64,000 bases of DNA, taken from positions 124,001 to 188,000 of the forward strand of contig CASFBL010000001.1 in NCBI GenBank assembly GCA_949292775.1, given 5' to 3'. A model generated the notes under the pieces. That model searched no databases and was not told the DNA's origin. It was given only the letters and a program-made list of their open reading frames with translations. This document shows positions 6,230-24,033 of the stretch, in pieces. The DNA comes from an uncultured Eubacteriales bacterium (GTDB lineage Bacteria > Bacillota > Clostridia > Oscillospirales > Acutalibacteraceae). The position numbers and the translations under genes were made by a program. Position 1 is the first letter of the stretch, and the number at the start of each line of letters is the position of its first letter.

Positions 6230-7503
6230 GTACATTTTTTTCTGTGTCGGAACAAGTAGAGCACGCTTCGAAAAACGCCCTGTGCAAAGCGCAAGCCGCT
6301 TTCCGGCAGATTGAGGACATCACGGAATATAACCAGCAAAAGGTGCTTGCGGCTTTCATTCGAAACCGTGTGGACGAAGCGGATTTCGGAACGACTACCG
6401 GCTACGGCTACAACGACCGCGGCCGGGAAAAGTTAGACGAACTTTGCGCCGATATTTTCGGTGCAGCGAAGGCGATTATCCGCGCGGGCATGCTCTCCTG
6501 CGGCACCCACACGCTGTCTGTTTGTTTATACGGTGTTCTGCGGCCGGGCGACACGCTTTTGTGCGTTAGCGGCACGCCTTATGACACCATTCATTCGACC
6601 ATCGGCATTGACCACGGCAAGAGTGAAGGCAAAGGCACGCTTTTGGATTTCGGCGTTTCTTACAGCCAAGTGGATTTGACTGCCGACGACCAGTTGGATT
6701 ATGACGCAATCGAGAAAGCGGCGGCAAAGCCGGAAGTGCGTATGGTGTATTTGCAGCGTTCGCGCGGTTACTCTTTGCGGCACAGCCTTTCGGTCGATGA
6801 AATCGGCCGTGTGTGCGAGGTGGTGCACCGTGTCAATCCCCGCGCAGTCGTCATGGTGGACAATTGCTACGGTGAATTTACCGAAAAGCGCGAACCGACC
6901 GAAGTCGGCGCAGACCTTATCGCCGGTTCTTTGATTAAAAACGCCGGCGGTGGCATTGCGGCTTCGGGCGGATACATAGCCGGTCGAGCCGATCTTGTGG
7001 AGCTTTGTGCCTGTCGTCTGACTACGCCCGGTTTGGGGCTTGAAGTCGGTGCGACCTTGGGGCAGAACCGCAGCCTTTACATGGGGCTTTTCCATGCGCC
7101 GCATGTGGTCGGCGAAGCGTTGAAAACCGCAGTGTATGCCGCTGCGCTGTTTTCCGAGCTTGGCTTTACGGTAACCCCGACCGCCCAAGAGACGCGGCAC
7201 GACATTATTCAGGCAATTTGCCTTGAAAATGCCGAGCGGCTCATAGCATTTTGCCAGGGTATGCAGAAAGGCGCGCCGGTGGATTCTTATGTGACGCCGG
7301 AGCCTTGGGATATGCCGGGCTATGACAACCAGGTGATTATGTCCGCCGGGGCGTTTACGGGCGGCTCGTCGATTGAGCTTTCCGGCGACGCACCGCTGCG
7401 TGAGCCATACGCGGTTTGGATGCAGGGCGGACTTAACTTTCACAGCGGCAAAGTCGGCGTTACGCTCGCCGCAGAAGAACTGCAAAGGAGAGGATTGTTA
7501 TGA
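6226..7503 (+). CDS. PLP-dependent methionine gamma-lyase / cystathionine beta-lyase family protein (YnbB-like)
   Basis: The 425-residue protein matches the family often labelled methionine gamma-lyase family or aluminium resistance protein. It has fold-type I PLP features: a cofactor-stacking region near SCGTHTLSV, the Asp in VMVDNCYGEF, and the PLP lysine in SLIKNAGGG (about residue 237). Members are thought to cleave C-S or C-C bonds of amino acids, but the physiological substrate is not established and cannot be read here. It overlaps both neighbours by the ATGA arrangement, so it is part of the same polycistron. In Bacillus the relative sits near hfq and glnR, a context not seen here. 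Confidence 0.85.
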   Translation: MSTFFSVSEQVEHASKNALCKAQAAFRQIEDITEYNQQKVLAAFIRNRVDEADFGTTTGYGYNDRGREKLDELCADIFGAAKAIIRAGMLSCGTHTLSVCLYGVLRPGDTLLCVSGTPYDTIHSTIGIDHGKSEGKGTLLDFGVSYSQVDLTADDQLDYDAIEKAAAKPEVRMVYLQRSRGYSLRHSLSVDEIGRVCEVVHRVNPRAVVMVDNCYGEFTEKREPTEVGADLIAGSLIKNAGGGIAASGGYIAGRADLVELCACRLTTPGLGLEVGATLGQNRSLYMGLFHAPHVVGEALKTAVYAAALFSELGFTVTPTAQETRHDIIQAICLENAERLIAFCQGMQKGAPVDSYVTPEPWDMPGYDNQVIMSAGAFTGGSSIELSGDAPLREPYAVWMQGGLNFHSGKVGVTLAAEELQRRGLL

Positions 7504-9026
7504 AGCTCAAGCATTTGAAAAGCGGAACCGATGTTCGCGGCACAGCAGTAAACGAAAAAGACCCCGCACAAATCGATTTGACCGACGAAGCGGTTCGCCG
7601 CATCACCGGTGCATTTGTCCGCTTTCTTGCCCGAAAGCAGGGCAAGGCTGTTTCTGCACTTTTGCTTTCGGTCGGGCATGATTCCCGCATTTCCGCCGAA
7701 CGCATCCGCCTGGCAGTTTTAACCGAGCTGACCGCTTCTGGCGTGCACACGCTTGACTGCGGGCTTTGTTCCACGCCCGCCATGTTCATGACAACACAAA
7801 CCGAAAATTGCGACGGCGCGGTGCAAATCACCGCGAGCCACCACCCCTGGGACAGAAACGGGCTGAAATTCTTCACCCCCGCAGGCGGTCTTTCCGGTGC
7901 GGATATTGCAGAAATTTTAGAAGATGCCGAGCAAACACCGCCGGCCGACTTTTCCGGGGAAATACAGGCAACGCCAATCGATTATCTTTCCATTTATTGC
8001 GCACATTTGCGGGATTTGATTTGCCGGGGCGTCAACAGCCCTGAGGATTATGACCACCCGCTAAAGGGCTTAAAAATCGTTGTGGATGCCGGCAACGGCG
8101 TCGGCGGCTTTTATGCCGACCGGGTACTTGCGCCGCTCGGCGCGGATACGACGGGCAGCCGGTTTTTAGAGCCGGACGGTATGTTCCCGAACCATATTCC
8201 GAACCCTGAAAACAAGCAGGCGATGGAGAGCATCCGTGAAGCGACCTTGCGTGCACATGCTGACCTTGGTGTTATTTTCGACACCGATGTGGACCGCGGC
8301 GGTGCGGTGACTGCGGACGGCGAAGAACTGAACCGCAACCGACTGGTCGCTGTGGCGGCTTCGATTGCGCTCGAAGAAAATCCCGGCGGGTGCGTGGTGA
8401 CAGATTCCGTGACTTGGGCAGGGCTCACCGATTTTATTGAACAGACGCTCGGCGGTCACCATATCCGCTTTAAACGCGGCTATAAAAATGTGATTGATGA
8501 AGCACAGCGCCGGCAGACGCTCGGGGAAAATGCACCCCTTGCGATTGAAACCTCCGGCCACGCGGCGTTCCGCGAAAATTATTATCTGGACGACGGCGCC
8601 TATCTTGTCACGCGCATCATTATTAAGCTGTGCCTCTTAAAACGCGAGGGCAAAACGCTTAGCGATTTAATCGCCGACCTGCGCGCTCCGGCTGAAGAAG
8701 CCGAAATACGCCTGCAAATTACCGACCCGGATTTCCGCACCCGCGGGGAACACTTAATCGGGTTTGTCGAGGAAAAGGCGCGCGACGAAAAAAATGTCCG
8801 TATTGCCACAGACAGTTATGAAGGCACAAAAATCATTTTTGACGCCGAAGATATAAAAGGCTTTTTCGTTTTCCGGCTGAGCGTCCATGACCCGGTCATT
8901 CCGGTAAACTTTGCATGCGACATTCCCGGCGGTCTTTCAAAAATCGCCCGGATGCTTCTCTCTTGGCTTCGCACCGCCGAAGGGCTTGATTTAGCGCCGC
9001 TGGAACAATTTTCCGGGGAATTTTGA
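7500..9026 (+). CDS. Phosphomannomutase/phosphoglucomutase (alpha-D-phosphohexomutase family)
   Basis: The 508-residue protein has four phosphohexomutase domains. The catalytic serine is in ITASHHPWDRNG (about residue 105), the magnesium loop is DTDVDRGG (about 261), and the sugar-binding loop is ETSGHAAF (about 350). The C-terminal phosphate-binding loop is not the usual RPSGTEP but TDSYEGTKI, a variant that occurs in part of the family. The enzyme should interconvert 1- and 6-phosphates of glucose, mannose or another hexose in the cytoplasm, which fits the galactokinase-family gene in the same operon. Start overlaps the previous stop (ATGA). It appears to be the last gene of the operon; a new promoter follows. 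Confidence 0.88.
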   Translation: MKLKHLKSGTDVRGTAVNEKDPAQIDLTDEAVRRITGAFVRFLARKQGKAVSALLLSVGHDSRISAERIRLAVLTELTASGVHTLDCGLCSTPAMFMTTQTENCDGAVQITASHHPWDRNGLKFFTPAGGLSGADIAEILEDAEQTPPADFSGEIQATPIDYLSIYCAHLRDLICRGVNSPEDYDHPLKGLKIVVDAGNGVGGFYADRVLAPLGADTTGSRFLEPDGMFPNHIPNPENKQAMESIREATLRAHADLGVIFDTDVDRGGAVTADGEELNRNRLVAVAASIALEENPGGCVVTDSVTWAGLTDFIEQTLGGHHIRFKRGYKNVIDEAQRRQTLGENAPLAIETSGHAAFRENYYLDDGAYLVTRIIIKLCLLKREGKTLSDLIADLRAPAEEAEIRLQITDPDFRTRGEHLIGFVEEKARDEKNVRIATDSYEGTKIIFDAEDIKGFFVFRLSVHDPVIPVNFACDIPGGLSKIARMLLSWLRTAEGLDLAPLEQFSGEF

Positions 9027-9034
9027 AAAGGATA

Positions 9035-9062
9035 TTGACAAAGGGAAATATTTTCATACAAT
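9035..9062 (+). promoter_or_regulatory. Probable sigma-A promoter of acpP-proS
   Basis: TTGACA (9035-9040), a 16-base spacer and TACAAT (9057-9062). It lies 9 bases past the phosphohexomutase stop and 40 bases before the acyl carrier protein ATG. Confidence 0.65.
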
Positions 9063-9101
9063 AATGTAGTATATAATTGTGACCGTTAAGGAGGTAGCCT
9101 T

Positions 9102-9326
9102 ATGATTTTTGAAAAAGTAAGAGATATTATTTGCGAACAGTTTGACCTGGAGCCGGATCAGATCACGGAAAACACCCTTCTTAAAGAGGATTTGGACGCT
9201 GACAGTCTGGACCTTGTGGATTTGGTCATGTCTTTTGAAGACGAATTCCAAATTGAAGTTCCCGAAGAGGAAGTCCGCAACATCAAAACCGTCGGCGATA
9301 TCGTAAACTATATCGAAGAACACTGA
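9102..9326 (+). CDS. acpP: Acyl carrier protein
   Basis: A 74-residue acidic helical protein with the phosphopantetheine site DADSLDLVDL, where Ser38 or nearby carries the 4'-phosphopantetheine arm. It shuttles acyl chains in fatty-acid synthesis. The length and the downstream acidic helix (SFEDEFQIEVPEEE) fit the FAS carrier protein rather than a carrier fused to a synthetase. The Shine-Dalgarno AAGGAGG is near-perfect. In many Firmicutes acpP sits beside plsX or rnc; here it is 48 kb away from them and followed by proS. No fatty-acid regulator site was recognised. Confidence 0.93.
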   Translation: MIFEKVRDIICEQFDLEPDQITENTLLKEDLDADSLDLVDLVMSFEDEFQIEVPEEEVRNIKTVGDIVNYIEEH

Positions 9327-9379
9327 CCCTTTCCAAGTCTTTTGGAAAGTGAACCGAATATAAGTGAAGGAAGTAAAAC

Positions 9380-10816
9380 ATGGCGCAACAGAAAAAAATG
9401 GTTGAAGAAATCACCTCTATGGAGGAAGATTTCGCAAAATGGTATACCGATGTTGTGAAAAAGGCGGAGCTGATTGAATACACCAGCGTAAAAGGCTGCA
9501 TGGTCATCCGCCCTTACGGTTATGCCATTTGGGAAAATATCCAGAAAGAGCTTGACCGGGAGTTTAAGGCACTCGGGCATGAAAATGTCTGCATGCCGAT
9601 GTTCATTCCGGAAAGCCTGCTCAATAAAGAAAAAGATCATGTCGAGGGTTTCGCACCCGAAGTCGCTTGGGTAACCTACGGCGGCAACGAAAAGCTGGAA
9701 GAACGCCTTTGCGTGCGCCCGACCTCCGAAACGCTGTTTTGCGAGCATTACAAAGCGATTGTGCAGTCCTACCGTGACCTGCCGAAGCTTTATAACCAGT
9801 GGGTCTCCGTGGTGCGCTGGGAAAAGACCACTCGCCCGTTCCTGCGCTCGCGTGAATTCCTGTGGCAGGAGGGGCACACCATCCACGCCACTGCCGAAGA
9901 GGCGCGCGAAGAGACTGTCCGCATGCTCAATGTATATGCGGATTTCTGCGAAAACTATCTTGCAATGCCGGTCGTTAAAGGCGTAAAGACCGAAAAAGAA
10001 CGCTTTGCCGGCGCAGAAGATACTTACACAATCGAAGCACTCATGCACGACGGCAAAGCACTTCAAAGCGCAACCTCCCACTATTTCGGCGACGGTTTCG
10101 CGCGTGCATTTGATATTCAGTTTACCGATAAAGACAACAAGCTGAAATATCCGTTCCAGACCTCCTGGGGCAGCACCACGCGCCTTATTGGCGCCATTAT
10201 TATGACCCACGGCGACAACAACGGTCTTGTTCTGCCGCCGAAAATTGCACCGACGCAGGTCGTGGTCATTCCGGTTGCCGCTCATAAAGCGGGCGTTCTG
10301 GAAAAAGCGCAGGAGCTTACAGACCGCATCAGCAAAGTCTGCCGCGTGAAGATTGACACCAGCGACAATTCCCCCGGCTGGAAATTCGCCGAATATGAAA
10401 TGAAAGGCGTGCCGCTGCGTTTGGAGATTGGTCCGAAAGACATCGAAAACAACCAGTGCGTTTTGGTTCGCCGCGACAACCGCGAAAAATATTTTGTGTC
10501 GCTCGACGACCTCGAGACCGAGATTCCGAAGCTGCTTGATACTGTTCAGAAAGGGCTTTATGAAGCGGCACTTGCACGCAGAGCGAATATGACCTATTCT
10601 GCTGCTTCCCTCGATGAACTCAAAGACATTGCCGACAATAAACCCGGCTTTATCAAAGCCATGTGGTGCGGCAGCCGCGAGTGCGAAGAGAAGCTCAAGG
10701 AATATGCCGGCGTGTCCTCGCGCTGCATTCCCTTCGAGCAGGAACATATCGCAGACACCTGCGTTTGCTGCGGCAAGCCTGCCGATAAAATGCTCTATTG
10801 GGGCAAAGCATATTAA
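9380..10816 (+). CDS. proS: Prolyl-tRNA synthetase, archaeal/eukaryal type (ProS type 3)
   Basis: The 478-residue enzyme charges tRNA-Pro with proline. It is the short type without the bacterial editing insertion: class II motif 2 is seen as [14 protein letters not shown] (about residues 148-161) directly after the RPTSET substrate loop. The anticodon-binding domain follows (from about 285), then a C-terminal zinc-type extension with Cys residues in CGSRECEE and CVCCGKP, ending in a tyrosine (GKAY) as is typical of this type. Clostridia often carry this form. It is 53 bases after acpP and followed by a terminator. ATG 9380 has an AAGGAAG Shine-Dalgarno. Confidence 0.93.
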
Positions 10817-12402: not shown

Positions 12403-15400
12403 ATGAAAAAGTCAACCAAATTGTTGAGCGTCATCTTGGCAATTGTGATGCTTTTCTCGAGCATGACCGTGCTGGCTTCTGCGGCGAAAACAGAATATAA
12501 AACTGTTGAAGACCTGCAGGCACTGGAAGCTTACAGCCCATACGGCGCAGTCACCAGACTGTCTACAGAAGAGCGTGTATCCATCCTGTTCGATTATCTC
12601 GATCAGGTGCTTGGTGATGCCAACATCGTAATGGAACCCATCGATTTGAGCGTTCTTGGCACGCTGAACATTAACTTGACTTCAGTTAATGCATTGTGCG
12701 GAACGGTAGACAATGTGAAATCTGTTTTGGACAGTGGCTGGATTGCCGGTTTGAAATGGATGGTCGGTATTATCGGTGATGTTAATTTGGACAGCTGGCC
12801 GTCTGGCATGACGCGTGAAAATACCGCACAGCTGACGATTGTTTCTGAACTGCTTGAGGTTCTGAAAAACAATGCAGGTGTTGTCGGTAATGTTCTTCGC
12901 ACCGGCAGCCTGGATCTCGGCGTTGCAAACAGCTTTGTCGATCTTAGTGCTGTTAGCGGCTATATCGGCGATATACCCGGCCTGATCAAAGGCCTCATCT
13001 TCCCGCTTTTCGAAAGAAAAGATGACGACCTGACGCAGATGGGTGCTTTGACGAGCACGCAGGGCGACGGCGGTGTGCAGACGGTTTTGAACAGCTTCGT
13101 TAAGTCTTTGTTCACAAAGCCTCAAAGCACCACTTCTTATAAAGAGAATGCTGAAGGCGTATGCATCAGCAACCACACGCTTCCCACAACGGACGATTAT
13201 TATCGTTACGCGTATGAAAAGGGTCAGGATTCAACCGGCGAGTATTTCACCTGCTATGTGCTGGATCCTGTAACTTATGAATACACGGCTGAAGAAGCGA
13301 AATTCTATAAGACCGAAGAACCGAAAGGCAGCGGCGAATATGTCTATAAGACCATGGCCGGTGACAATCTGAAATACTATAAGAACGACAGCTATTGGCT
13401 TCCGTCTTTCGCAAACGATCTGAACACTGGCAGTGCAACTTTGGATCTTGAGACAGATTCTGCAGCTACTCTGCTTTACAAGTTTGCGCCTTATGTATTC
13501 CAGGAGATGGCTCCTGTCGTTCTGAACGGTTCTGTTAAGAAGGCTCTTGCACAGTGGTTCGGCGCTTCCTTTACATATGTCGGCGAAGTCGGCAGTGAAG
13601 AAGTTACAGCACTTCCGGATTCCGGCAACGCTTTCTTCACCCAGGAGCAGGGCGAATACCTTTGGGAGTGGTCTGATTACGCTGTAATCAACGGTAACCA
13701 TTATTATCGTTTCGAAGATCAGATTTTCTCTTCTGACCTTTCCAACACCAATCCTTATTTCGATATCATCGACTGGGATTATAAGATTACTGATGATTTC
13801 ATCAATGAATTTATCCCCGCATCTGCTGACGGTTCCACCGCTTCTGCGGCTGGTTACACTACCGTTCTGCAGGCTGCAAATGACTTCTTCGGTAAGGTAA
13901 TTGAAACCGTCTTCACCCCGGATGTTGTTTCTGCAATTGCTTGGGTTGACGGTGACAACTCCAAACTTCTTGAAAATGCGAAGAAAGCTGCTCGCTATGT
14001 TGTTAGCTACAGCCCCGAATCCATTTTCGGTGAAGACTATAACAACGGTTATTATCAGCTGATGATGAACGAAGGCTCCACCAATCAGGAAATCGTTTGC
14101 GGTATTGCTGCGAAACTGATTGAGCTGCTTATGCCGCAGCTGGTTCTTCCGTCGGCTGAAAACCTCAAAGGTCAGAATGTTGGCGCTCTGTTGGCTGCAA
14201 TTCTTCGTGAACTTGCAACACAGTTTGTCCCGACCTACAACTATGACGCTTTGATTTACTCAGATTACAACACCAAGACCTTCGTGGCCGGCAAAGACAA
14301 CGACTACTGGCTGGATGTCTGCCTGACCATCGGTGTGGACATTGGTATGTCTTATCTGAGAAACCTTGCTGACCTCGGTGAGGATACGGATGTCGGCTAT
14401 AAATTTGCTGAATCCAAGACCTATGACCTTGCAACATTCGAACAGAACCCGCAGAAGTGGGAAGAAACGATTGACTGGGTTGTTGACTGGGCACTTTGCA
14501 ATGATTATGAGTGGACTTGGAAGATGGAGAACTTTGTTGATACAAGTTCCTTCACCATCGACCTTGCAACCGCACAGGATCCGTGGGTGAAGCTGGATGC
14601 TATCTTCCGCAGCCTGCTTCCGGTTGAGCAGATCCTCAATGTTACACCTGCTGAAGGTAAGACCTGGCTTGAGACCGCGCTGAGAGACAACTTTGTTGGC
14701 GCTCTGCTTGATCTCGACATCGTAACGCCGGTTAGCATGCTCAACATTCCGCAGAACAGCGTTTTGAGAACGACCGGTGCATTCCCTGCAATCGTTCAGG
14801 TCGTCCGCGACCTGCTGAACGACCTGCTTTATAAGATGGCTGGTGGCAACCTGTTGGATCCTGCTACAATCACCAGCATTGACAGCGTGTTCAATCAGCA
14901 GAACATTGCAAACTTTGCACAAAACCTGGTTTCCAAGCTCCATACTGCTTATCAGAATGGCTTGCTTGATGTAGCTATGCCGTTCCTGAACTTCTTCGTT
15001 GGTTGGTCCACCAATGCGCAGACCATGGCAAATCCGTATGCCTATTTCAATAATGCGGAAGGCTATGACTACCTGTTCTCTGCGGACAGCGCAACGGTTA
15101 ACTCGACTTTGGTCATCCGTAACGACTCTGCAGGTTCCTTGCTTAAACATCGTCAGTCCGATGTTGTTGACCAGCCCTATAACATCTACATCACGGGCAT
15201 CACCTCCAGCGATGCGACGATGACTTCATCCGCGTCCTTCCCGATGGTGATTGCTCCTGGTGCATCCGGTTCTATTCCGATGAACTTCACCTATAGTGGT
15301 GATAAGGCTGTTACTATTGAAGTTACATACTATTATGTATTCAAAGACGGCTCTGCAATCGGTGGCGAACAGACGATGACTTCCTATCAGTATGTTTCTA

Positions 15401-17544
15401 ACGCTAGACCGGATACAGAACAGGTAACATCCTATGATGAACAAAATGTCCGAATCAACAATACCGCAGTATCCAAGGTTGACGCTATCCGCATTAAGCC
15501 GGACAATACAGATAAATACATTGTTGCAAGCTCCCTGAACGCTGTGACCAGTGTTATGTTCGGCTTCAACAACAACGCAGGTGAAAGCTATGCAACTTGG
15601 ATTAAGTCCGTAGAGGCAAGCGGCTATCCGGATTTCGTAATTGACCAGACTGCCAATTATGAACACGGTGACGATGAAAACCTTTCTCTCTATGAACAGA
15701 AGATTGGTTGGATGAACGGCGACAACAAATATTCGTCTATGGTGCCGTTTGCTTTCAACACCAATGTGGATCTTTCGGGCTATGAATATGGTTCGGTTAT
15801 CGACCTTGGCACCGTATCAGTTACCTGGCACAACAATAGAAAAGGCGGCAGTTGGGGCGTAGGCGAAACCGGCGGCAACAACAATGTTACCTTTACAATG
15901 GATGCCGGCGACCTTTACTACACCGACACCTCTGCTCTTAAGGCTGCTTTCGACAGCTATTCAAGCCTTAGAAGAAGCGACTATGCAGAAGATGCAAATG
16001 CTGAATGGAATGCATTGCAGAATGCATTGCTTGCAGCTGCAAGAACTCTGCTGATGCCGTTCAAGGCTGATTCCTTCGGCACCGAGTATTCGGCTGCTGC
16101 ACTGGATGCTTTGGTTGAAAACTTGAATACTGCATATGAAGCACTCGAGAAGAAACCGAGTTCCACCAACGCTTACACCGCGTTGCAGGAGGCACTTGAT
16201 AAAGCAGAACCCAACGAAAGAGATACTGACTATCAGGATTATGAGCTGTATGAGTACTGGGATTATGAAGAAGCCAGAAACAACGCTCGCAGCATTTTGA
16301 GCGGCTATCAGCTGCCCGAAGCACCTGATAAGTATATCGACGGTTGCGCTCTCTCTGAAGAAGAGATCAACGCGATTGCGGATGCTGCCGGCAATGCAAC
16401 ATTGACCGCAGCAATCAAGGCGACCATGTCTGAGCCGACTGAAGCTGATATGGACGCTTACGAAGAAGCACTTGCGAACTATGTAGCACCGGAATACTCC
16501 GCACTGAATCTTGACGATGCTGCTGCGAAGCTTGGCTTCTACAAGCAGTTCCTGATTGCTAAGACCACCGAAAAGCAGTTCCTTGCAAAAGAAATTGCTG
16601 CTGCTAACGCACAGGGCTATGTGGAAGACAACTACTCCACGGATTCCTGGGCAGCTTACAGTGCAGCGCTTGCAACTGCAATCGAAGTCAACAGTGACCC
16701 GAATGCATTGCAGTCCACTGTATTCGATGCAAAATATGGACTCATGATTGCGCGCAACAACCTGATGGCAAAAGCAGATTCTGCGAAAGATCAGGGCGCT
16801 TACATGCAGCTCGAAAGCCTCATTGCACAGGCTGATGTTATGTTCCAGAACACCGACCTTTACACTGTGAAGGAAGGCGAAGCTGCTGACGCATGGGCAA
16901 AACTCGTTGCAGTTCTCGGCTACGAATATGAAGACGAAAACGGCGCAACACAGAACCTCTATGCGAACTCCGCAAAAGCATTTGTTGCTGCGGACCGCGC
17001 AATGAGCACTACTACTCAGAACCAGATTGATGCCAAAGTTGCAGAACTTCAGGCAGCGATTAACCAGTTCACCTGCTCCATCACACTTGTTCCGGATGAA
17101 GATGTTCCCGGCAACGACACCAATGTTGAACAGAGCGAATTGGTCATCAACGGTCTTGTTCCGGCAACGATTAACTCCGAAGAAGACCTGCTTGCTCTGG
17201 TTGAAGCTTCCGCTCCGGCAGGCTACACCGCAACACTTGAATCAGTTGCTTCCGCTGCTGGTTATTACGGTACCGGCGCAACCGTGAAAGTTAATGTTGC
17301 TGAGCTCGATGGTCAGACAGTTGCCACCTACACCGTGGTTATCTACGGCGATGTGAACGGCGACGGCGCAGTCGATGCGTTCGACGCAGCTGTTCTTGAT
17401 CTTGACCTGACTGGCAAGACCGCACTCACCGGCGCATACAACCTTGCAGCAGATACAAACGCTGACGCAGAAGTTGCTGCAGCTGACTATGCTCTTGTTA
17501 AGGATGTACTCGCTGGCACCGGTGCAATCAATCAGGTAAGATAA
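12403..17544 (+). CDS. Giant secreted surface protein with FIVAR-like repeats and C-terminal dockerin
   Basis: A 1713-residue exported protein with a classical signal peptide (about residues 1-28, cleavage after ASA). Residues 30-890 are a large, mainly helical region I do not recognise. About 895-1030 looks like a beta-sandwich module. From about 1178 to 1570 there are several helical repeats rich in Ala, with W..A/L..AL patterns resembling FIVAR modules. About 1580-1645 is an X-module-like domain, and 1646-1705 a type I dockerin with two calcium loops (DVNGDGAVDAFD and DTNADAEVAAAD). There is no LPXTG anchor, so attachment would be through a dockerin-cohesin pair or carbohydrate binding. 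Single gene with its own promoter, leader and terminator. Confidence 0.8.
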   Translation: MKKSTKLLSVILAIVMLFSSMTVLASAAKTEYKTVEDLQALEAYSPYGAVTRLSTEERVSILFDYLDQVLGDANIVMEPIDLSVLGTLNINLTSVNALCGTVDNVKSVLDSGWIAGLKWMVGIIGDVNLDSWPSGMTRENTAQLTIVSELLEVLKNNAGVVGNVLRTGSLDLGVANSFVDLSAVSGYIGDIPGLIKGLIFPLFERKDDDLTQMGALTSTQGDGGVQTVLNSFVKSLFTKPQSTTSYKENAEGVCISNHTLPTTDDYYRYAYEKGQDSTGEYFTCYVLDPVTYEYTAEEAKFYKTEEPKGSGEYVYKTMAGDNLKYYKNDSYWLPSFANDLNTGSATLDLETDSAATLLYKFAPYVFQEMAPVVLNGSVKKALAQWFGASFTYVGEVGSEEVTALPDSGNAFFTQEQGEYLWEWSDYAVINGNHYYRFEDQIFSSDLSNTNPYFDIIDWDYKITDDFINEFIPASADGSTASAAGYTTVLQAANDFFGKVIETVFTPDVVSAIAWVDGDNSKLLENAKKAARYVVSYSPESIFGEDYNNGYYQLMMNEGSTNQEIVCGIAAKLIELLMPQLVLPSAENLKGQNVGALLAAILRELATQFVPTYNYDALIYSDYNTKTFVAGKDNDYWLDVCLTIGVDIGMSYLRNLADLGEDTDVGYKFAESKTYDLATFEQNPQKWEETIDWVVDWALCNDYEWTWKMENFVDTSSFTIDLATAQDPWVKLDAIFRSLLPVEQILNVTPAEGKTWLETALRDNFVGALLDLDIVTPVSMLNIPQNSVLRTTGAFPAIVQVVRDLLNDLLYKMAGGNLLDPATITSIDSVFNQQNIANFAQNLVSKLHTAYQNGLLDVAMPFLNFFVGWSTNAQTMANPYAYFNNAEGYDYLFSADSATVNSTLVIRNDSAGSLLKHRQSDVVDQPYNIYITGITSSDATMTSSASFPMVIAPGASGSIPMNFTYSGDKAVTIEVTYYYVFKDGSAIGGEQTMTSYQYVSNARPDTEQVTSYDEQNVRINNTAVSKVDAIRIKPDNTDKYIVASSLNAVTSVMFGFNNNAGESYATWIKSVEASGYPDFVIDQTANYEHGDDENLSLYEQKIGWMNGDNKYSSMVPFAFNTNVDLSGYEYGSVIDLGTVSVTWHNNRKGGSWGVGETGGNNNVTFTMDAGDLYYTDTSALKAAFDSYSSLRRSDYAEDANAEWNALQNALLAAARTLLMPFKADSFGTEYSAAALDALVENLNTAYEALEKKPSSTNAYTALQEALDKAEPNERDTDYQDYELYEYWDYEEARNNARSILSGYQLPEAPDKYIDGCALSEEEINAIADAAGNATLTAAIKATMSEPTEADMDAYEEALANYVAPEYSALNLDDAAAKLGFYKQFLIAKTTEKQFLAKEIAAANAQGYVEDNYSTDSWAAYSAALATAIEVNSDPNALQSTVFDAKYGLMIARNNLMAKADSAKDQGAYMQLESLIAQADVMFQNTDLYTVKEGEAADAWAKLVAVLGYEYEDENGATQNLYANSAKAFVAADRAMSTTTQNQIDAKVAELQAAINQFTCSITLVPDEDVPGNDTNVEQSELVINGLVPATINSEEDLLALVEASAPAGYTATLESVASAAGYYGTGATVKVNVAELDGQTVATYTVVIYGDVNGDGAVDAFDAAVLDLDLTGKTALTGAYNLAADTNADAEVAAADYALVKDVLAGTGAINQVR

Positions 17545-17830: not shown

Positions 17831-19009
17831 ATGACAAAAGCAAAAAAAGCGATTAGCGTCGTTTTGGCTGTTGTTATGATTGCGGGATTGTTTGCGTTCG
17901 GCGCTTTTGCGGCGGATCAGAATGCAACAATCGCAGTTTCCGCCAGCGAGTCACAGGTCGATGTCGGTGCTACCGTTACAGTGACCGTTGCTGCTACAAC
18001 TGATTATTTTGCAGCGGCAGCTTCTGTCCCGGTTTATTACGATGCGGCTGCGTTTGAACTCGTTCCGGATTCTGTTACGCCCAGCACTGACCTTTACGGT
18101 GCGGGCTATACCGATACAGCAATCAACACAGCAGAAGCTGGTTGTGTAATGGTCGCTTTCATTCCGAAAGCAGACGGCACAGCAAAACAGCTGAGCAATA
18201 CGACTTTGTTCACCTTCCAGCTCAAGGCGAAAGCAGATGCAGCAGCTTCTGCAATCACCACCAAAGCGGAAGATCAGAAAACGGCTACCAACATCGGCGG
18301 CAAGCTGTATTTGGGCGCCTATTCTACTGAAGATGTCAATACTGCTGAAGTAACAACTGTCGGTCAGAAATTCACCCTGACCAATGCTACTGTTACAGTT
18401 GGCAGCGGTGCTGCTGAACCCAACACCCTTGCCATTAAAGATGCATTTGCAGGAAAAGAATCTGTGTATATTGATAAGGATATCATTGGCATGATTACCG
18501 CTGATGACTGGTATCCAGTTTTAGCTGATGCTGTTGATAGCACTGCTACAGGTCTGGTCTACGGTATTGACACCATTGGTTATGATGATGTTTTTGCGTC
18601 TGATTCCTATCCTACATTAGAAGATGCCCTGACAACAACTTTGGGCGATGAATATTTAAGAATTACTACTGTTGATGCAGCTGGTGGATATGCTTCAACT
18701 GGTGCAAAGATTGAAGTTTTAGATGCCAATAAATCAACCGTTCTTGAAACCTATTATTTTGTTTATTTTGGTGACATAAACGGTGATGCATATGTAGATG
18801 GCGTTGATGCTTCTGAAGTAGCAAAGTGGGACTATTATCAAGATAGCCTTTCAACAGTTGCTGCAGTTGTAGCATCTGATTACAACGGCGATTCTTATAT
18901 GGATGGTTTGGACTTTTCAGTGTTAGCTGAAGTAGACTACAATCAGGAAAATTATCCCACACAGGCAGAGCTCGCAGCTGGATTTCATGCTAGTGCACAC
19001 GGTATGTGA
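17831..19009 (+). CDS. Secreted cohesin-like plus X-module/dockerin protein
   Basis: The 392-residue protein has a signal peptide (about residues 1-28, ending AFAA). A cohesin-like beta domain follows (about 30-195), with the typical opening V.VGATVTVTV and the YYDAAAFE strand. About 205-310 is an X-module-like domain related to that of the giant protein upstream. The C-terminus (about 311-375) is dockerin-like, with loops DINGDAYVDGVD and DYNGDSYMDGLD. Having a cohesin-like and a dockerin-like domain in one chain would allow it to act as an adaptor. From about 18430 the base composition becomes more AT-rich than the first 600 bases. First gene of an operon with the next three. Confidence 0.75.
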   Translation: MTKAKKAISVVLAVVMIAGLFAFGAFAADQNATIAVSASESQVDVGATVTVTVAATTDYFAAAASVPVYYDAAAFELVPDSVTPSTDLYGAGYTDTAINTAEAGCVMVAFIPKADGTAKQLSNTTLFTFQLKAKADAAASAITTKAEDQKTATNIGGKLYLGAYSTEDVNTAEVTTVGQKFTLTNATVTVGSGAAEPNTLAIKDAFAGKESVYIDKDIIGMITADDWYPVLADAVDSTATGLVYGIDTIGYDDVFASDSYPTLEDALTTTLGDEYLRITTVDAAGGYASTGAKIEVLDANKSTVLETYYFVYFGDINGDAYVDGVDASEVAKWDYYQDSLSTVAAVVASDYNGDSYMDGLDFSVLAEVDYNQENYPTQAELAAGFHASAHGM

Positions 19010-19038: not shown

Positions 19039-20223
19039 ATGCGATTTTCTAAAAGATCAATTAGCTTTGTTCTTGCAGTCGTAATGCTCATTTCTGTTTT
19101 TTCCTTCGCAGTATCTGCAGGTGCTCCTGATTTAAGCACTTCAGAAACGGCGAGAGTTGGTGTTTCGTTTGAATATTTACATGAAGATGGCACTCCCGTT
19201 ACTTCGGTAAAACCGGGCGAAATTATCACTGTAAATATTTATGCTACTTCGAAAACAGATAATGATGCATTAACAAAAGCGGCTTTTTGTGTATTCTTTG
19301 ATAGTTCGGTTTATTCTTGGATTGAAGGTTCTAGAGAGTTTATCGGACCTAAAAACTATATTAGTACAGCATCGAATGTTAGTGTTATTCAAGCCGGCAC
19401 CACGGTTTACAATAATATGGCTGCCAAAATGACCGAAGAAGATAAAGCACATGGTTGGGACTCTGCGCTTTATATTCAAGCTTTAGTTGACGGTACTGTG
19501 CCGGATGAGTATTATGTTAAAGAAAACTCCGACAAGATTTTTTGCACGGCCAAATTAAAGGTTGCTGATGATGTCGAGCCGGGCACGAAAGCAGATTTAG
19601 GCGCACCTGAATGTTCAATTTACGCGTCCAAGCGCGGTGCGAACTATAATTATGTTCAAACTATTGCTGCAACTGCTCCCACCAACACTAATTTGGTTTT
19701 GGGTGAGTTTACCGTACCGCTTACCGTCGCTTCTGAGGAGCCCGCAGGTCCCGCAGTTACCAAGACTCAGGCTGAAGTTAAGATGGTTCTGAATGCTGAA
19801 AAGAACGCTGTTGATTTCTCGGCAGATAAAGCATTCCAGTTCCGTGTTATCTCCTCCATCTCTGAAGATGACTGGAACACTTACTTCAACGGCGACGGCT
19901 CCAACATTGAATCTGTTGGTTTCGTAGCTTACAAGGGCGACGGCGCGTTTGATATGGAAACCGCGAAATCTGTCGCAATGGGCAGTTCTGCTGCCGACTA
20001 TCAGGCTGCAAAGACCGACTACATCCAGAAGGTAGACGGCCAGCCCGCGAACTTCGGTGCTCGCATCGACTTCACAGCGCGTGAAAATGTCAAGGATGTT
20101 ACCTACATTGCATTTGTTCAGTATGACACTGATCAATTTGCATTCTACGACACTTCCTTTGATGCTGATCTCAATTCAAATTATGACATGCTTGTTTCGC
20201 AATACGCTGGTTTTATCGGCTGA
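19039..20223 (+). CDS. Secreted cohesin-like surface protein
   Basis: The 394-residue protein has a signal peptide (about residues 1-27, VLAVVMLISVFSFAVSAGA). A cohesin-like domain with V.PGEIITVNIYA and the FFDSSVYSW strand covers about 35-230. A second, unrecognised beta-rich domain is at about 245-390 (region beginning TKTQAEVKMVLNAE). No dockerin or wall anchor is seen. The frame is open upstream to 19006, but ATG 19039 with AAGGAG 12 bases before it begins an excellent signal peptide, so it is the start; it lies 29 bases after the previous stop. The first 690 bases are AT-rich and the last third returns to the GC-richer codon use of the giant protein. Partner unknown. Confidence 0.72.
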   Translation: MRFSKRSISFVLAVVMLISVFSFAVSAGAPDLSTSETARVGVSFEYLHEDGTPVTSVKPGEIITVNIYATSKTDNDALTKAAFCVFFDSSVYSWIEGSREFIGPKNYISTASNVSVIQAGTTVYNNMAAKMTEEDKAHGWDSALYIQALVDGTVPDEYYVKENSDKIFCTAKLKVADDVEPGTKADLGAPECSIYASKRGANYNYVQTIAATAPTNTNLVLGEFTVPLTVASEEPAGPAVTKTQAEVKMVLNAEKNAVDFSADKAFQFRVISSISEDDWNTYFNGDGSNIESVGFVAYKGDGAFDMETAKSVAMGSSAADYQAAKTDYIQKVDGQPANFGARIDFTARENVKDVTYIAFVQYDTDQFAFYDTSFDADLNSNYDMLVSQYAGFIG

Positions 20224-20241: not shown

Positions 20242-20373
20242 ATGATTATGCAAAGCAAACAATATGCTGCACCTGATTTTGAGTTTACAGCATTTGAGCA
20301 AGTGGACACAGTAGCAATTAATGTTTCTGAACATCCGGTAACAGACGATGATGATGCAGTAATTGTTTGGTGA
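20242..20373 (+). CDS. Small peptide 1 of a related pair (candidate RiPP-like or surface peptide)
   Basis: A 43-codon frame 18 bases after the surface protein gene. The product begins MIMQSKQYAAPDFEF and ends in an acidic tail DDDDAVIVW. Its N-terminal half aligns with the next small frame: K-Q-Y..PDF followed by matching acidic, aliphatic and aromatic positions, a shared Asp and a shared Ile. The ribosome-binding site is weak (an in-frame ATG at 20248 is the alternative start), so translational coupling to the upstream gene is likely. No signal peptide or membrane helix. Conservation with the neighbour is the main evidence that it is real. Function unknown. Confidence 0.55.
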   Translation: MIMQSKQYAAPDFEFTAFEQVDTVAINVSEHPVTDDDDAVIVW

Positions 20374-20410
20374 CGCAATTTTGATATAATTTGAAAGGAG
20401 AACACTTCAG

Positions 20411-20536
20411 ATGAAACAAGTGTACACAACACCCGATTTTGATGTTTCACTCTATGATGTTGAAGATATTATCACAATTTCCATCGGCGGCGGCCCTGTT
20501 GAGGGCGGCGACGAGGGCTGGATGCCCATCGGCTAA
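20411..20536 (+). CDS. Small peptide 2 of a related pair (candidate RiPP-like or surface peptide)
   Basis: A 41-codon frame with a strong AAAGGAG Shine-Dalgarno 10 bases before its ATG, directly followed by an intrinsic terminator. The product begins MKQVYTTPDFDVSLYD, continues VEDIITIS and ends in a glycine-rich acidic tail with GGG, GGDEG and WMPIG. The pattern K.Y..P.F.V..(Y/F)..EDIIT.S recalls short, poorly annotated peptides I have seen in gut Clostridia; that is memory, not a search result. A conserved N-terminal half and variable C-terminal tail is the layout of a leader plus core in ribosomal peptides, but no modifying enzyme or exporter is adjacent. It is the last gene of the operon. 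Confidence 0.65.
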   Translation: MKQVYTTPDFDVSLYDVEDIITISIGGGPVEGGDEGWMPIG

Positions 20537-20587
20537 GTTGTGATAATTGCACATCGGTGCAGACACACTGGGTATATTAAAAACACG

Positions 20588-20622
20588 GCAAGGCAGAGTT
20601 TTACACTCTGCCTTGTTTTTTT
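20588..20622 (+). terminator. Intrinsic terminator of the surface/small-peptide operon
   Basis: A perfect 10-base-pair stem, CAAGGCAGAG (20589-20598) with CTCTGCCTTG (20606-20615), is followed by seven T residues. Confidence 0.9.
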
Positions 20623-20915: not shown

Positions 20916-21605
20916 ATGTATACCGTTTTAATTTGTGATGACGACAAAGCGATTTTGGATTCCTTGGAGATTTATCTCCATTTGGAAGGTTACGAAGTAA
21001 TCAAAGCGGAAAACGGCGAGCAGGCGCTGAAAGCTGCGCAAAGCAATGAAATCCATTGCATTGTTTTGGATATTATGATGCCCGGCATGGACGGCCTGAA
21101 TGCCACACTGAAACTGCGTGAAACCAAAAATATCCCGATCATTCTGCTTTCGGCAAAAAGTGAGGATACCGACAAAATCACCGGGCTTTCTTTCGGTGCA
21201 GATGATTATGTCACCAAACCGTTTAATCCGCTGGAATTGATGGCGCGCGTAAAATCGCAAATCCGCCGCTATGTTTCGCTCGGCAGCATGGAGATGCGCG
21301 AAAATGTGCTGACAACCGGCGGACTGACGCTTGACCCCGACTCTAAAGAGGTCACACTCGACGGCGAGCCTGTGCGCCTGACAGCAACGGAATACGGCAT
21401 TTTGGAGTTGCTGATGCGCAACATGGGTCGTGTGCTTTCCACCAATCAGATTTACGAAGCCGTGTGGAACGAGCCTGCGTTTTCCACCGAAAAGACCGTT
21501 ACGGTCCACATTCGCCGAATCCGCGAGAAAATCGAAATCAATCCGAAAGAGCCGAAATATTTGAAAGTGGTGTGGGGCATTGGATACAAAATTGAAAAGT
21601 ATTAA
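20916..21605 (+). CDS. OmpR/PhoB-family response regulator
   Basis: The 229-residue protein has a receiver domain (about 1-118) with acidic pocket CDDD (8-10), phospho-acceptor Asp52 in VLDIMMPGMDG and the conserved Lys in YVTKPFNP. A winged-helix DNA-binding domain follows (about 130-229, TVTVHIRRIREKIE recognition region). It should bind promoter DNA when phosphorylated by the sensor kinase encoded next, whose start overlaps its end by 26 bases. Shine-Dalgarno GAGGGGAAAG. Targets are not evident; the surface operon immediately upstream is the nearest candidate. Confidence 0.95.
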   Translation: MYTVLICDDDKAILDSLEIYLHLEGYEVIKAENGEQALKAAQSNEIHCIVLDIMMPGMDGLNATLKLRETKNIPIILLSAKSEDTDKITGLSFGADDYVTKPFNPLELMARVKSQIRRYVSLGSMEMRENVLTTGGLTLDPDSKEVTLDGEPVRLTATEYGILELLMRNMGRVLSTNQIYEAVWNEPAFSTEKTVTVHIRRIREKIEINPKEPKYLKVVWGIGYKIEKY

Positions 21606-24033
21606 ATACAGCTACGGTTTAAAAACAGTTGCGTTTATTTTGGCGGTTGTCTGTGTGTTTTCCGCGGCGTGGTATGCACAGCTCATCGTGCAGACGCTTG
21701 ACAGTTACGGCTGGCAGCAGGGCATCAGTGCCGATGATTTATCCTTTACAGACTCAACCTTGTTTGAGCAGCAGGCCACCTCAACTCTGCATGACCTGAG
21801 CACGGCTTTTATTGATAATGACTGGGAGCGCGACATCCTGCCGACATATGATTCGTTGGAAGAAGAACAGGCATATGTGCTCAAACAGTTCCACGAATTT
21901 CAAAAAGACATTTACGCGAGATATGGAACCATGAGCAGCGACTACACGGCGGAAGATTACGATTATCCGGAAGAAACGATAGTTTATGGGGATGAAACCA
22001 CCAGCAGCATTTATTCCGCAGATGAATTGGGCAGCTTTTCAGGGAGTTTCCACTTTAACAGTATGGATGCGGGCGAATTTGTGCTGTATTCAGACCAAAG
22101 CGACCAAGAAGTCCGTGAAATCGTGCAAGAATTATATACAAGCACGCTCGCAAGCTACAAACGACGGTTTGAATCTTCCGTTCTGCAAGCACAGCAGGCG
22201 CTCAGCAAGCTGAAAAATGTGCAATATTATTTATATAATACAAACACCGGCGAAGTCATTACCAATATGCCGGCAGAAGTCACGGCAGAAAACTTTAGAG
22301 AATATTTAAACAGCTCCGACTGGTATTTTGGCTACACCTGTGACAAAGGCTTGACGCTTTACTCCGACTCGCTGAACATCGACACATTTTATCAGGGGAA
22401 CTACGCGATTCCCTTTGCTGACTTGTTGAACAGCGGCTTCAGCGACAAAGGCTACGATGTTTATTTCAACATTCCCATGCCGCTTGAGCGCGGCGACAGC
22501 TTTGCCGACGCACAGGAGGCATTCCTGACCGGTGCTTCACAAATTCGGGCGCACTGCCTCGCCACGGTCGCCCTGTTGATCGCCGCCGCTCTGCTTTCGC
22601 TCTATCTTGTGCTGGTCACTGGTCATGTGCGCGGCAGAGAGGGCATTTGCCTCGCGCCCGGTGATAAAATGCCGAACGATCTGCATTTTGTGTTAAGCTG
22701 GGGCCTCGGCATTGCCGCGGGAACGGGGGCGGTTGCCGCCTGTGCCGATCAGATGTCGTCCGGCACGGATGAAATTTTCTTCCCGGCAATCGGCGCGCTG
22801 CTTTCAGCGGTCGTTTACATGCTCTTTATCGAGTGGATAAACTCGGTTGCCAAAGGCTATAAGGCGGGCAGGCCGTATTTCCGTTCCACCCTTATAGCAA
22901 AACTGTTTATGGCATGGCACCGGGGAAACAAAAAGTTTTTCGGGGCGCTTCGCCGGGTTTATTTGACGCGGCTTACCTCGCTTTCTAAAAAAGTACGGTG
23001 GTTTGCAATTTTCTATCTTGCCGTGAACGGCGTGCTTGCACTGTTTACATTTGAGCGAATCGGCATTGCGCTGTTCTTCTTGGTTTTGTTTAACGCGGTG
23101 TGTCTGATATTAGCTTGGCGCTATGTAATTGCGCTTGATAAAATCATCACCGCGGCCCAAAAGGAACGCGACGGGGAACCCGCACCGCTTTTATATGCGG
23201 AAAACATGCCGCAGCCTTTGCGCTCGCTTGCAGAAAACTTCTGCGCGACGCAGGAAACGAAAGAGGCGGCAATCGAAGAAGCACTCAAGGGCGAACGCAT
23301 GAAAACCGAGCTGATCACCAATGTTTCCCACGACCTGAAAACGCCACTGACCTCCATCATTTCTTATGTAGATTTGCTGGGAAAATGCGATATTCAGGAC
23401 GAGACCGCAAAAAATTACATTCGTGTATTAGACGAAAAATCCGGGCGTCTCAAACGGTTGATTGAAGATTTGGTCGAAGCCTCCAAGGTTTCCTCCGGCG
23501 CGGTAACGCTCAACAAAATGCGTGTGAACCTCTGCGAGCTTGCAACGCAGGCTGTCGGCGAAATGGAAGACAGTTTTTCGGCAAAACGGCTCGAAATTGT
23601 TTTGAGCATGCCCGAAAAGCCGCCGGTGATTTTTGCCGACAGTCAAAAGACCTGGCGCATCATTGACAATCTGCTGAACAATGCGCGCAAATATTCTTTA
23701 GAGGGCACGCGCGTCTATGTAGATGTGCGCGAAGAAAATGGTCAAGGCATTTTCTCTGTGAAAAATGTGTCTGCTGAAGCCCTGAATATTCCGCCCGAGG
23801 AACTGACACAGCGCTTCGTGCGCGGCGACCAGTCGCGAACCAACGAGGGCAGCGGGCTTGGGCTTTCCATTGCAAAAGACCTCTGCACATTGCAGGGCGG
23901 TGAGCTGGCATTGGAAATTGACGGTGACCTTTTCAAGGCAACGGTTAAACTGCCGAAGGCTTATGAGGGCGATTTCTCCAAAGAAACGCCGGTGCCGCCT
24001 GTGCCGCCGGGCACACCGAATGCGCGCAGTTAG
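21580..24033 (+). CDS. Membrane sensor histidine kinase with large extracytoplasmic domain
   Basis: An 817-residue histidine kinase. A first membrane helix (about 12-32) is followed by an extracytoplasmic region of roughly 290 residues. A block of about five membrane helices follows (starting about 324, 370, 405, 475 and 500). The catalytic core has the H-box NVSHDLKTPLTS (His about 584), N-box DNLLNNARKYS (about 695) and GSGLGLSIAK. The extended multi-helix membrane block is unusual for a simple EnvZ-type sensor. TTG 21580 or TTG 21592 are the only plausible starts and both lie inside the regulator gene, so translation is coupled. The last 12 codons contain one copy of the 21-base repeat. 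The signal is unknown. Confidence 0.9.
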   Translation: MDTKLKSIKYSYGLKTVAFILAVVCVFSAAWYAQLIVQTLDSYGWQQGISADDLSFTDSTLFEQQATSTLHDLSTAFIDNDWERDILPTYDSLEEEQAYVLKQFHEFQKDIYARYGTMSSDYTAEDYDYPEETIVYGDETTSSIYSADELGSFSGSFHFNSMDAGEFVLYSDQSDQEVREIVQELYTSTLASYKRRFESSVLQAQQALSKLKNVQYYLYNTNTGEVITNMPAEVTAENFREYLNSSDWYFGYTCDKGLTLYSDSLNIDTFYQGNYAIPFADLLNSGFSDKGYDVYFNIPMPLERGDSFADAQEAFLTGASQIRAHCLATVALLIAAALLSLYLVLVTGHVRGREGICLAPGDKMPNDLHFVLSWGLGIAAGTGAVAACADQMSSGTDEIFFPAIGALLSAVVYMLFIEWINSVAKGYKAGRPYFRSTLIAKLFMAWHRGNKKFFGALRRVYLTRLTSLSKKVRWFAIFYLAVNGVLALFTFERIGIALFFLVLFNAVCLILAWRYVIALDKIITAAQKERDGEPAPLLYAENMPQPLRSLAENFCATQETKEAAIEEALKGERMKTELITNVSHDLKTPLTSIISYVDLLGKCDIQDETAKNYIRVLDEKSGRLKRLIEDLVEASKVSSGAVTLNKMRVNLCELATQAVGEMEDSFSAKRLEIVLSMPEKPPVIFADSQKTWRIIDNLLNNARKYSLEGTRVYVDVREENGQGIFSVKNVSAEALNIPPEELTQRFVRGDQSRTNEGSGLGLSIAKDLCTLQGGELALEIDGDLFKATVKLPKAYEGDFSKETPVPPVPPGTPNARS
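24000..24020 (+). repeat. 21-base direct repeat, copy 2
   Basis: Identical to 20622-20642. This copy lies in the 3' end of the sensor kinase gene and encodes part of the PPGTPN tail, so the two copies bracket the two-component operon. Confidence 0.8.

Follow-up and report, generated by a model that had tools for sequence, protein, structure and literature searches.

Two short open reading frames at the end of a surface-protein operon in the genome of an uncultured Eubacteriales bacterium (Acutalibacteraceae; assembly GCA_949292775.1) are real genes under purifying selection and belong to a large clostridial peptide family. They lie in a stretch of 64,000 nucleotides of contig CASFBL010000001.1 (positions 124,001 to 188,000, forward strand), here called the window, and they probably encode the precursors, peptides A and B, of a ribosomally synthesized and post-translationally modified peptide (RiPP) system that works in trans and resembles the linear polyphosphorylated peptides (LPPs). 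The new element is the position of the precursor genes, which lie away from the maturation cassette and just downstream of genes for secreted proteins that share a C-terminal domain (CTD). The window locus is on contig C1 of the host genome (G000; 2.16 Mb across 44 contigs; genomes, contigs and loci are cited by our G, C and L numbers) and has the following features, numbered from the first base of the window:

12403-17544, + strand: secreted protein of 1713 aa with a C-terminal dockerin type I, gene 1 of a conserved surface-protein group
17831-19009, + strand: secreted protein of 392 aa with a dockerin below cut-off near its C-terminus, gene 2 of the conserved group
19039-20223, + strand: secreted protein of 394 aa with a signal-peptide-like N-terminus; its stop lies 18 bases 5′ of peptide A
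19726-20220, + strand: CTD (165 aa) of the 394-aa secreted protein; no Pfam family, AlphaFold2 pLDDT 93, beta-rich
20242-20373, + strand: putative precursor peptide A, 43 aa; leader Y8-A-A-P11-D-F13, acidic tail
20411-20536, + strand: putative precursor peptide B, 41 aa; leader Y5-T-T-P8-D-F10, then VEDIIT22-I-S24, and a Gly/acidic tail with Trp
20587-20617, + strand: strong Rho-independent terminator 3′ of peptide B (fold z = -4.7, plus scan)

The coordinates and the fold z-score confirm the arrangement given in a preliminary description of this DNA, namely two frames (43 and 41 codons) separated by 37 bases at the operon end with a strong terminator next. The ribosome-binding site of peptide A is weak and that of peptide B is good (AAAGGAG). 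The same description had labelled the secreted proteins cohesin-like; Pfam detects a dockerin in the first surface protein (over its cut-off) and a sub-threshold one in the second, and none of the three shows a cohesin domain, so that this label is unconfirmed.

The alignment of the N-terminal halves of the two peptides, which was the basis for regarding them as a family, is not significant for the pair alone (a single-sequence search with peptide B retrieves peptide A at E = 0.18, 26 % identity); the relationship is clear through relatives, a profile of 38 members that include both (A3) matching the two at 8e-20 and 5e-14. Homologous small frames are widespread elsewhere in Clostridia. With peptide B as query, matches are found in 40 of 59 genomes at E ≤ 1, mostly in short frames, the few in long frames looking like chance, and a profile of the family finds matches in 66 of 295 genomes of the order at E ≤ 0.01; the tandem of A-type and B-type peptides is seen again in congeners. 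One long-frame match, in G020 (L263), covers 15 residues of a 417-aa frame at E 0.02 and was discarded as chance, and another, in G009 (L264), gave no match to the peptide profile. Neither Pfam nor NCBIfam names a family for the two window peptides, NCBIfam has no family model for the 38 members, and the peptide-family profile drew only chance matches from the PDB. In G011 (L034:8236-11890) and G018 (L036:8777-12820) the surface protein, peptide A and peptide B form a module that is present as two tandem copies, 3.4-3.8 kb apart, with both peptide A copies identical within each genome.

Ratios of dN/dS near 1 among relatives, which the preliminary description had named as damaging to its proposal, did not occur. 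The ratio is well below 1 where it is measurable, at 0.08-0.30 in all ten comparisons of peptide B with its relatives and 0.10-0.32 for peptide A in the three of six with unsaturated synonymous sites. Pooled pN/pS is 0.33 in the tail of peptide B versus 0.21 in its leader, and 0.39 versus 0.48 respectively in peptide A. The tail is thus constrained within each subfamily, and of the variable core proposed earlier what stands is that the tails differ between the two paralogues; they are not hypervariable. The ending [DE]AVI[IV]W of peptide A is kept in 7/7 aligned sequences, and peptide A of G029, outside that set, ends DAIIDWR. It might be argued from their very short length, from the absence of a name in the family libraries tried and from the weak ribosome-binding site of the first that the frames are not genes at all, or are decaying or regulatory frames; this is contradicted by the dN/dS values and by conservation over many species and contexts, and we find it hardly credible.

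The leader of the family has the form Y-x-x-P-[DE]-[FIL]...[DE]-[IV]-I-T-x-S. This consensus derives from 95 distinct peptides, 93 of which were anchored on [YFWH]xxP (the two without the anchor being left out), with 91 distinct leaders among them; since the anchor pattern itself demands P, only the share of Y and the later positions are informative. Relative to the Pro, Y is found at -3 in 95 % of the 91 leaders, D/E at +1 in 89 % and F/I/L at +2 in 88 %, and in leaders that are long enough F/Y occupies +7 in 97 %, D/E +11 in 96 %, T +14 in 75 % and S +16 in 72 %. Counted over all 91 leaders, position P+14 is T or A in 77 and position P+16 is S in 65. The region past +16 carries a net negative charge in 90/91 and Cys in none. 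Genomic evidence supports the view that peptides A and B belong to an overlooked family of leader-plus-core precursors, in which the cleavage and phosphorylation region of peptide B is predicted to lie around T22-x-S24. We note that in four congeners, G011, G019, G018 and G025 (L206, L216, L219 and L220), an orphan peptide follows a frame of 94-135 aa that is not a CTD protein, and that these small frames end alike (e.g. AYAYDHPQ).

A trans-acting maturation partner, suggested earlier as one possibility, is supported by the positions of a four-gene cassette. In four congeners (L041 in G034, L043 in G022, L050 in G033 and L093 in G026) the same surface-protein genes are followed by a peptide gene and directly afterwards by the cassette genes (HprK-like kinase, PqqD-type protein, signal-peptidase-like protease and ABC exporter). 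The window genome encodes one such cassette, on a different contig (G000:C17, 51147-54270), and an NTP transferase elsewhere:

G000:C17:51147-51881: HprK-fold kinase, found by profile search of the genome
G000:C17:51878-52144: PqqD-type recognition element (Pfam PqqD, E 5.5e-21)
G000:C17:52151-52600: signal-peptidase-like protease with invariant Ser/His; no Pfam match at 0.01
G000:C17, to 54270: ABC exporter (Pfam ABC_membrane and ABC_tran)
L265:7435-8583 (G000:C2): NTP transferase (PF14907, E 9.8e-51), unlinked to the cassette

The kinase profile and the profile of the PqqD-type protein find one and the same set of 42 among 59 genomes. With pLDDT 94, the kinase model has HprK/P as its best solved matches (Foldseek E 1e-6, probability 1.00, TM-scores only ~0.3-0.5), and Pfam Hpr_kinase_C is sub-threshold in relatives and gives no match at 0.01 for the window-genome kinase. 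In the protease, Ser33 and His72 are invariant in 12/12 sequences with a spacing of 39 residues, the same as S29-H68 of LppS (the comparison covers the Ser and His, not LppS D93); its family-level match is weak (PDB signal peptidase I, E 0.01). Four PDB relatives of the PqqD-type protein were found, the lasso B1 proteins TbiB1, PbaB1 (9x90) and TfuB1 and the LPP protein LppB (9x8z), and the Asp aligned with LppB D70, a residue that we placed on the PDB chain from those named in PMC13381572, is invariant in 11/11 recognition elements. The top NCBIfam models for the exporter homologue in L041 are MsbA_rel and MsbA, below cut-off. Against the HprK/PqqD cassettes modelled in NCBIfam (SynChlorMet ScmC/ScmD and the HPr-rel-A system) the kinase and PqqD partners match weakly (ScmC, E 2.8e-12) and never reach the curated cut-offs, the ScmC match scoring 46.6 bits where 125 are required. 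The presence of the NTP transferase agrees with that of the kinase in 34/36 genomes. Judged by eye, the window-genome NTP transferase gene (L265) is at the margin of a locus resembling one for polysaccharide biosynthesis, and in G003 (L268) the corresponding gene directly follows one for a cassette-like protease, away from the kinase and beside polysaccharide-type genes. A different cassette in G016 (L087:7616-10004, contig C53) comprises a PqqD-type protein, a radical SAM enzyme, a 90-aa frame starting MKKEYVPPK and an HprK-like kinase; farther on lie several secreted proteins of ~150 aa that resemble one another. It is possibly another RiPP variant in the same genus.

Peptide and cassette also occur together well beyond the four loci in which they adjoin. 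Among the 295 genomes of the order (completeness ≥80 %; both scans are assumed to cover the same genomes, and the counts are uncorrected for phylogeny) the peptide profile matches in 66, a few of which may be chance (that in G281 lies in a 441-aa frame), the kinase in 95 and both in 61, so that the kinase is present in 61/66 peptide genomes versus 34/229 others; with the window genus excluded it is present in 57 of 62 peptide genomes. Thirty genomes of the genus have both; four of them have the cassette no more than 1.1 kb from a peptide, four have it 37-176 kb away on the same contig and 22 have it on another contig, the congener genomes being drafts in which distances across contigs are undefined. 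A kinase-anchored scan of 84,980 species genomes gave at least 595 relatives, clostridial and many of them from rumen and gut, of which the best 80 were kept as loci, many of these ending at contig edges. In 17 of the best 80 a peptide lies on the same strand upstream of the kinase, by up to 3.5 kb; these include loci of Herbivorax, Acetivibrio alkalicellulosi, Clostridiales VE202-01 and a Desulfotomaculaceae bacterium, as well as L126 and L145, which correspond to the contigs of G022 and G026. Within 7 kb in these best 80 loci, the gene groups seen most often are the kinase (76), PqqD-type protein (45), protease (37) and exporter (28), followed by a 397-aa protein (18), the representative of which is an NTP_transf_5 nucleotidyltransferase by Pfam, and a Wzz/BY-kinase-like protein (15). 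It is very probable that the precursors are served by this cassette.

The LPPs, described from the lppA-K-B-S-D-N genes of Paenibacillus alginolyticus (PMC13381572; Nat Commun, 20 May 2026), have the same set of proteins, namely the discrete recognition element LppB, the HprK-like kinase LppK, the leader protease LppS of signal-peptidase-I type, the MsbA-like exporter LppD and the NTP transferase LppN. As reported in the main text of that paper, the kinase phosphorylates Ser3 of the core, the leader is cut off after a Thr, the cluster includes the precursor gene and has no macrolactam cyclase, LppB D70 hydrogen-bonds the leader Tyr, the precursor consensus is YxxPxVLxHQxIxFETxxS / Px9Fx[T/A] and the genes lie near polysaccharide-type loci. 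All five protein types are encoded in the window genome, the leaders share Y-x-x-P (with the Tyr as frequent as given above), the protease keeps the Ser/His spacing of LppS, the Tyr-binding Asp of LppB is retained, and polysaccharide-type genes lie near the NTP transferase. The clostridial system appears from these likenesses to be an LPP-like variant of the kind published in 2026. It differs in that its precursors are mostly unlinked from the cassette, its NTP transferase is unlinked also, and its precursors are paired with CTD surface proteins. The main text of PMC13381572, as distinct from its supplementary data, makes no mention of clostridia, of dispersed or orphan genes or of secreted proteins, and within the literature searched, which takes in few subscription papers, the term 'linear polyphosphorylated peptide' appears in that paper only.

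Many of these features are shared with lasso peptides of the paeninodin type, which have a [Y/W]xxPx[L/V/I/F/A] leader logic, a discrete recognition element, an HprK-like kinase, an NTP transferase and an exporter (PMC13381572, PMC7533575 and PMC5067487), and genes for HPr kinase, PqqD and nucleotidyltransferase have been noted in rumen genomes studied for lasso clusters (PMC7533575). The peptides could accordingly be read as lasso precursors: the leader has Y-x-x-P-x-[FL] and a Thr near the junction, many B-type peptides have, by eye, an acidic residue eight positions into the putative core, and the closest solved relative of the PqqD-type protein is a lasso B1 protein, a class of which one member binds its leader with nanomolar affinity (PMC5067487). 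The B2 leader protease (PF13471) is absent from the window genome and exceeds the cut-off in none of 23 genus genomes, with weak sub-threshold matches in nine; the cassette has the signal-peptidase-like protease instead. Asn_synthase (PF00733) has no match on C17, which carries the cassette, or on C1, which carries the peptides, and inspection by eye of the 28 largest groups of neighbouring genes at the best 80 kinase loci, groups that were scanned with Pfam in part, showed no cyclase. Elsewhere in the window genome PF00733 matches fully on C7 and weakly and partially on C2, C8 and C3, and these matches may be to a cyclase or to asparagine synthetase; the C2 match is ~15 kb from the NTP transferase. 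On the PF13471 and PF00733 searches a lasso product is very unlikely.

The second regularity of the system is the pairing of the peptide genes with genes for CTD proteins, by which the link of the peptides to secreted proteins drawn in the preliminary description is borne out at the gene level. Among 60 distinct upstream proteins (≥100 aa, gap ≤350 bases) 50 carry a signal-like N-terminus by a simple rule, and in a set of 57 upstream proteins with at least 200 aa, 42 share the CTD, which ends 0-24 residues from the C-terminus (iterated model). In the genus a peptide lies 21-402 bases downstream of 40 of 47 CTD matches, and a CTD precedes 46 of the 59 peptide rows, these rows being the short genus frames from the peptide B search, exclusive of long frames, other genera and some weaker rows such as that of window peptide A. 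The window CTD is the single match in its genome. The domain is fused to varied N-terminal parts, including leucine-rich repeats, subtilase plus leucine-rich repeats, and GLUG repeats. A CTD profile search of the PDB gave no match, and Foldseek with the CTD model gave none at E ≤ 0.001 and weak Ig-like matches only, so we claim no fold name. Precursors paired with surface proteins are not described in the titles and abstract openings of the literature searched, most subscription papers lying outside it.

Because the iterated CTD model contains its own members and therefore overstates E-values, a second search set a model built from 25 genus sequences against 1437 frames of left-out loci. Eleven independent frames match at E up to 0.2, and nine of them are directly upstream of peptides, with the match ending at the C-terminus; six of the nine are from other genera or unplaced (L047 twice, L133, L226, L227 and L233) and three are divergent members of the same genus (L048, and L051 twice). 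Matches in L126 and L145 were not counted, these contigs (of G022 and G026) being already in the model. In G028 the frame of the leucine-rich-repeat CTD surface protein upstream of a peptide (L045:7347-8471) has an in-frame stop, which is real or an assembly error. G051 (f17), from another family, has fifteen weak CTD matches (E 7e-9 to 6e-5), with no adjoining peptide recognized in the four stretches inspected.

The pairing and the co-occurrence admit other explanations. The peptides might be unprocessed helpers of the surface protein, intracellular or secreted, such as chaperones or stabilizers, with an ecological cause for the co-occurrence of the kinase. This would account for the tight gene pairing with CTD proteins, and five of the 66 peptide genomes have no kinase at threshold; it leaves unexplained that the cassette comes immediately after the peptide gene in four congeners and close to it in Clostridia farther afield, and that the leader motif is of a type to which discrete recognition elements bind, groups of these elements being reported to bind W/Y/LxxP/L/I motifs (PMC12710340). 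We consider it improbable.

Alternatively, the exported peptides could be pheromone signals read by a two-component system, as in agr-type circuits, with the surface proteins as targets of the circuit. An OmpR-type response regulator and an 817-aa histidine kinase are encoded directly after the peptide unit in the window (20916-24033), and in the same place in G024 (L033). In G001 and G002, regulators and kinases which we take to be of the agr type adjoin such loci:

L048:6050-8090 (G002): LytTR regulator and GHKL kinase genes directly beside CTD-protein/peptide genes
L051:67-1918 and 6694-10082 (G001): LytTR regulator and GHKL kinase genes directly beside CTD-protein/peptide genes

A gene of this kind lies within 6 kb in only five of 64 peptide loci, the match in L082 being doubtful (the models were built from those same few genes, and flank lengths vary), and peptides are paired far more often with a CTD protein. 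Two-component signalling is thus possible in single species and is not general; as an account of the family it is unlikely.

Several observations weigh against an LPP-like system acting in trans with the CTD proteins. None of the 91 clostridial leaders matches Px9Fx[T/A], for which reason we name the system LPP-like and do not file it as LPP; the recognition element scores higher by profile with TbiB1 (1.9e-11) than with PbaB1 and LppB (6.2e-7); and peptide A lacks the T-x-S of peptide B, having A-I-N at the aligned place. The kinase occurs without a peptide, at the threshold used, in 34 of its 95 genomes, and the peptide genomes without it include G258, which has 10 peptide matches and is 81 % complete. 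As to the pairing, 13 of the 59 genus peptide rows do not follow a CTD, and a peptide is lacking at 7 of the 47 CTD matches, of which five are full domains, one lies close to the end of a contig and one is weak and partial. Similarity of the CTD outside the genus is remote: the best two of the 11 independent matches, in L146 and L170 (9e-4 and 6e-3), are not beside a peptide, the peptide-linked ones range from 0.04 to 0.2, and two further matches at E ~1 are also not beside a peptide. The genus CTD proteins with no recognizable downstream peptide gene include those of L251, L252, L253, L254 and L255.

We nevertheless favour the LPP-like system in trans, and the following scheme combines the computed results (gene family and selection, cassette with its family and fold assignments, co-occurrence, adjacency in four congeners and peptide-CTD gene pairing) with the published LPP system, from which the steps of recognition, phosphorylation, cleavage and export are inferred; the CTD-partner step is taken from the gene pairing only. 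The precursors would be made from the end of the surface-protein operon, and the PqqD-type recognition element encoded on G000:C17 would grip their leaders through Y-x-x-P-x-F. The HprK-fold kinase of the cassette would then phosphorylate a Ser near the leader-core junction (in T-x-S of peptide B), and by analogy with the LPPs we regard a phosphorylated core as somewhat more probable than an unmodified one. The signal-peptidase-like protease, with its conserved Ser and His, would cut off the leader near the phosphorylation site, and the MsbA-type ABC transporter would export an acidic core of ~15-20 residues, to which the unlinked NTP transferase may attach a further group. Outside the cell the peptide would act on or with the secreted protein encoded upstream, most likely through the CTD, for example as a dedicated ligand or an assembly factor; we give an even chance to the peptide acting with the CTD protein. 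More tentative, and to our minds somewhat short of an even chance, is the full picture of a central, single-copy RiPP machine serving precursors scattered behind secreted proteins, with the phosphorylated peptide as a dedicated partner of the CTD and a structural or assembly component of the surface, rather than a free antibiotic or signal.

The dispersed arrangement has a practical consequence, since the precursors lie elsewhere in 26 of the 30 congeners that have both peptide and cassette, and precursor searches confined to biosynthetic clusters would miss most such precursors in this genus. The roles of LPPs and of paeninodin lasso peptides are called unknown in the main text of PMC13381572. 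Here a precursor gene is tied to one defined partner, a surface domain of 165 residues with a high-confidence model, and the window genome has by our searches one CTD, one cassette and two precursors, so that function is directly testable. The inheritance of the peptides together with one particular surface protein is thus a genetic clue to the role of this class of peptides.
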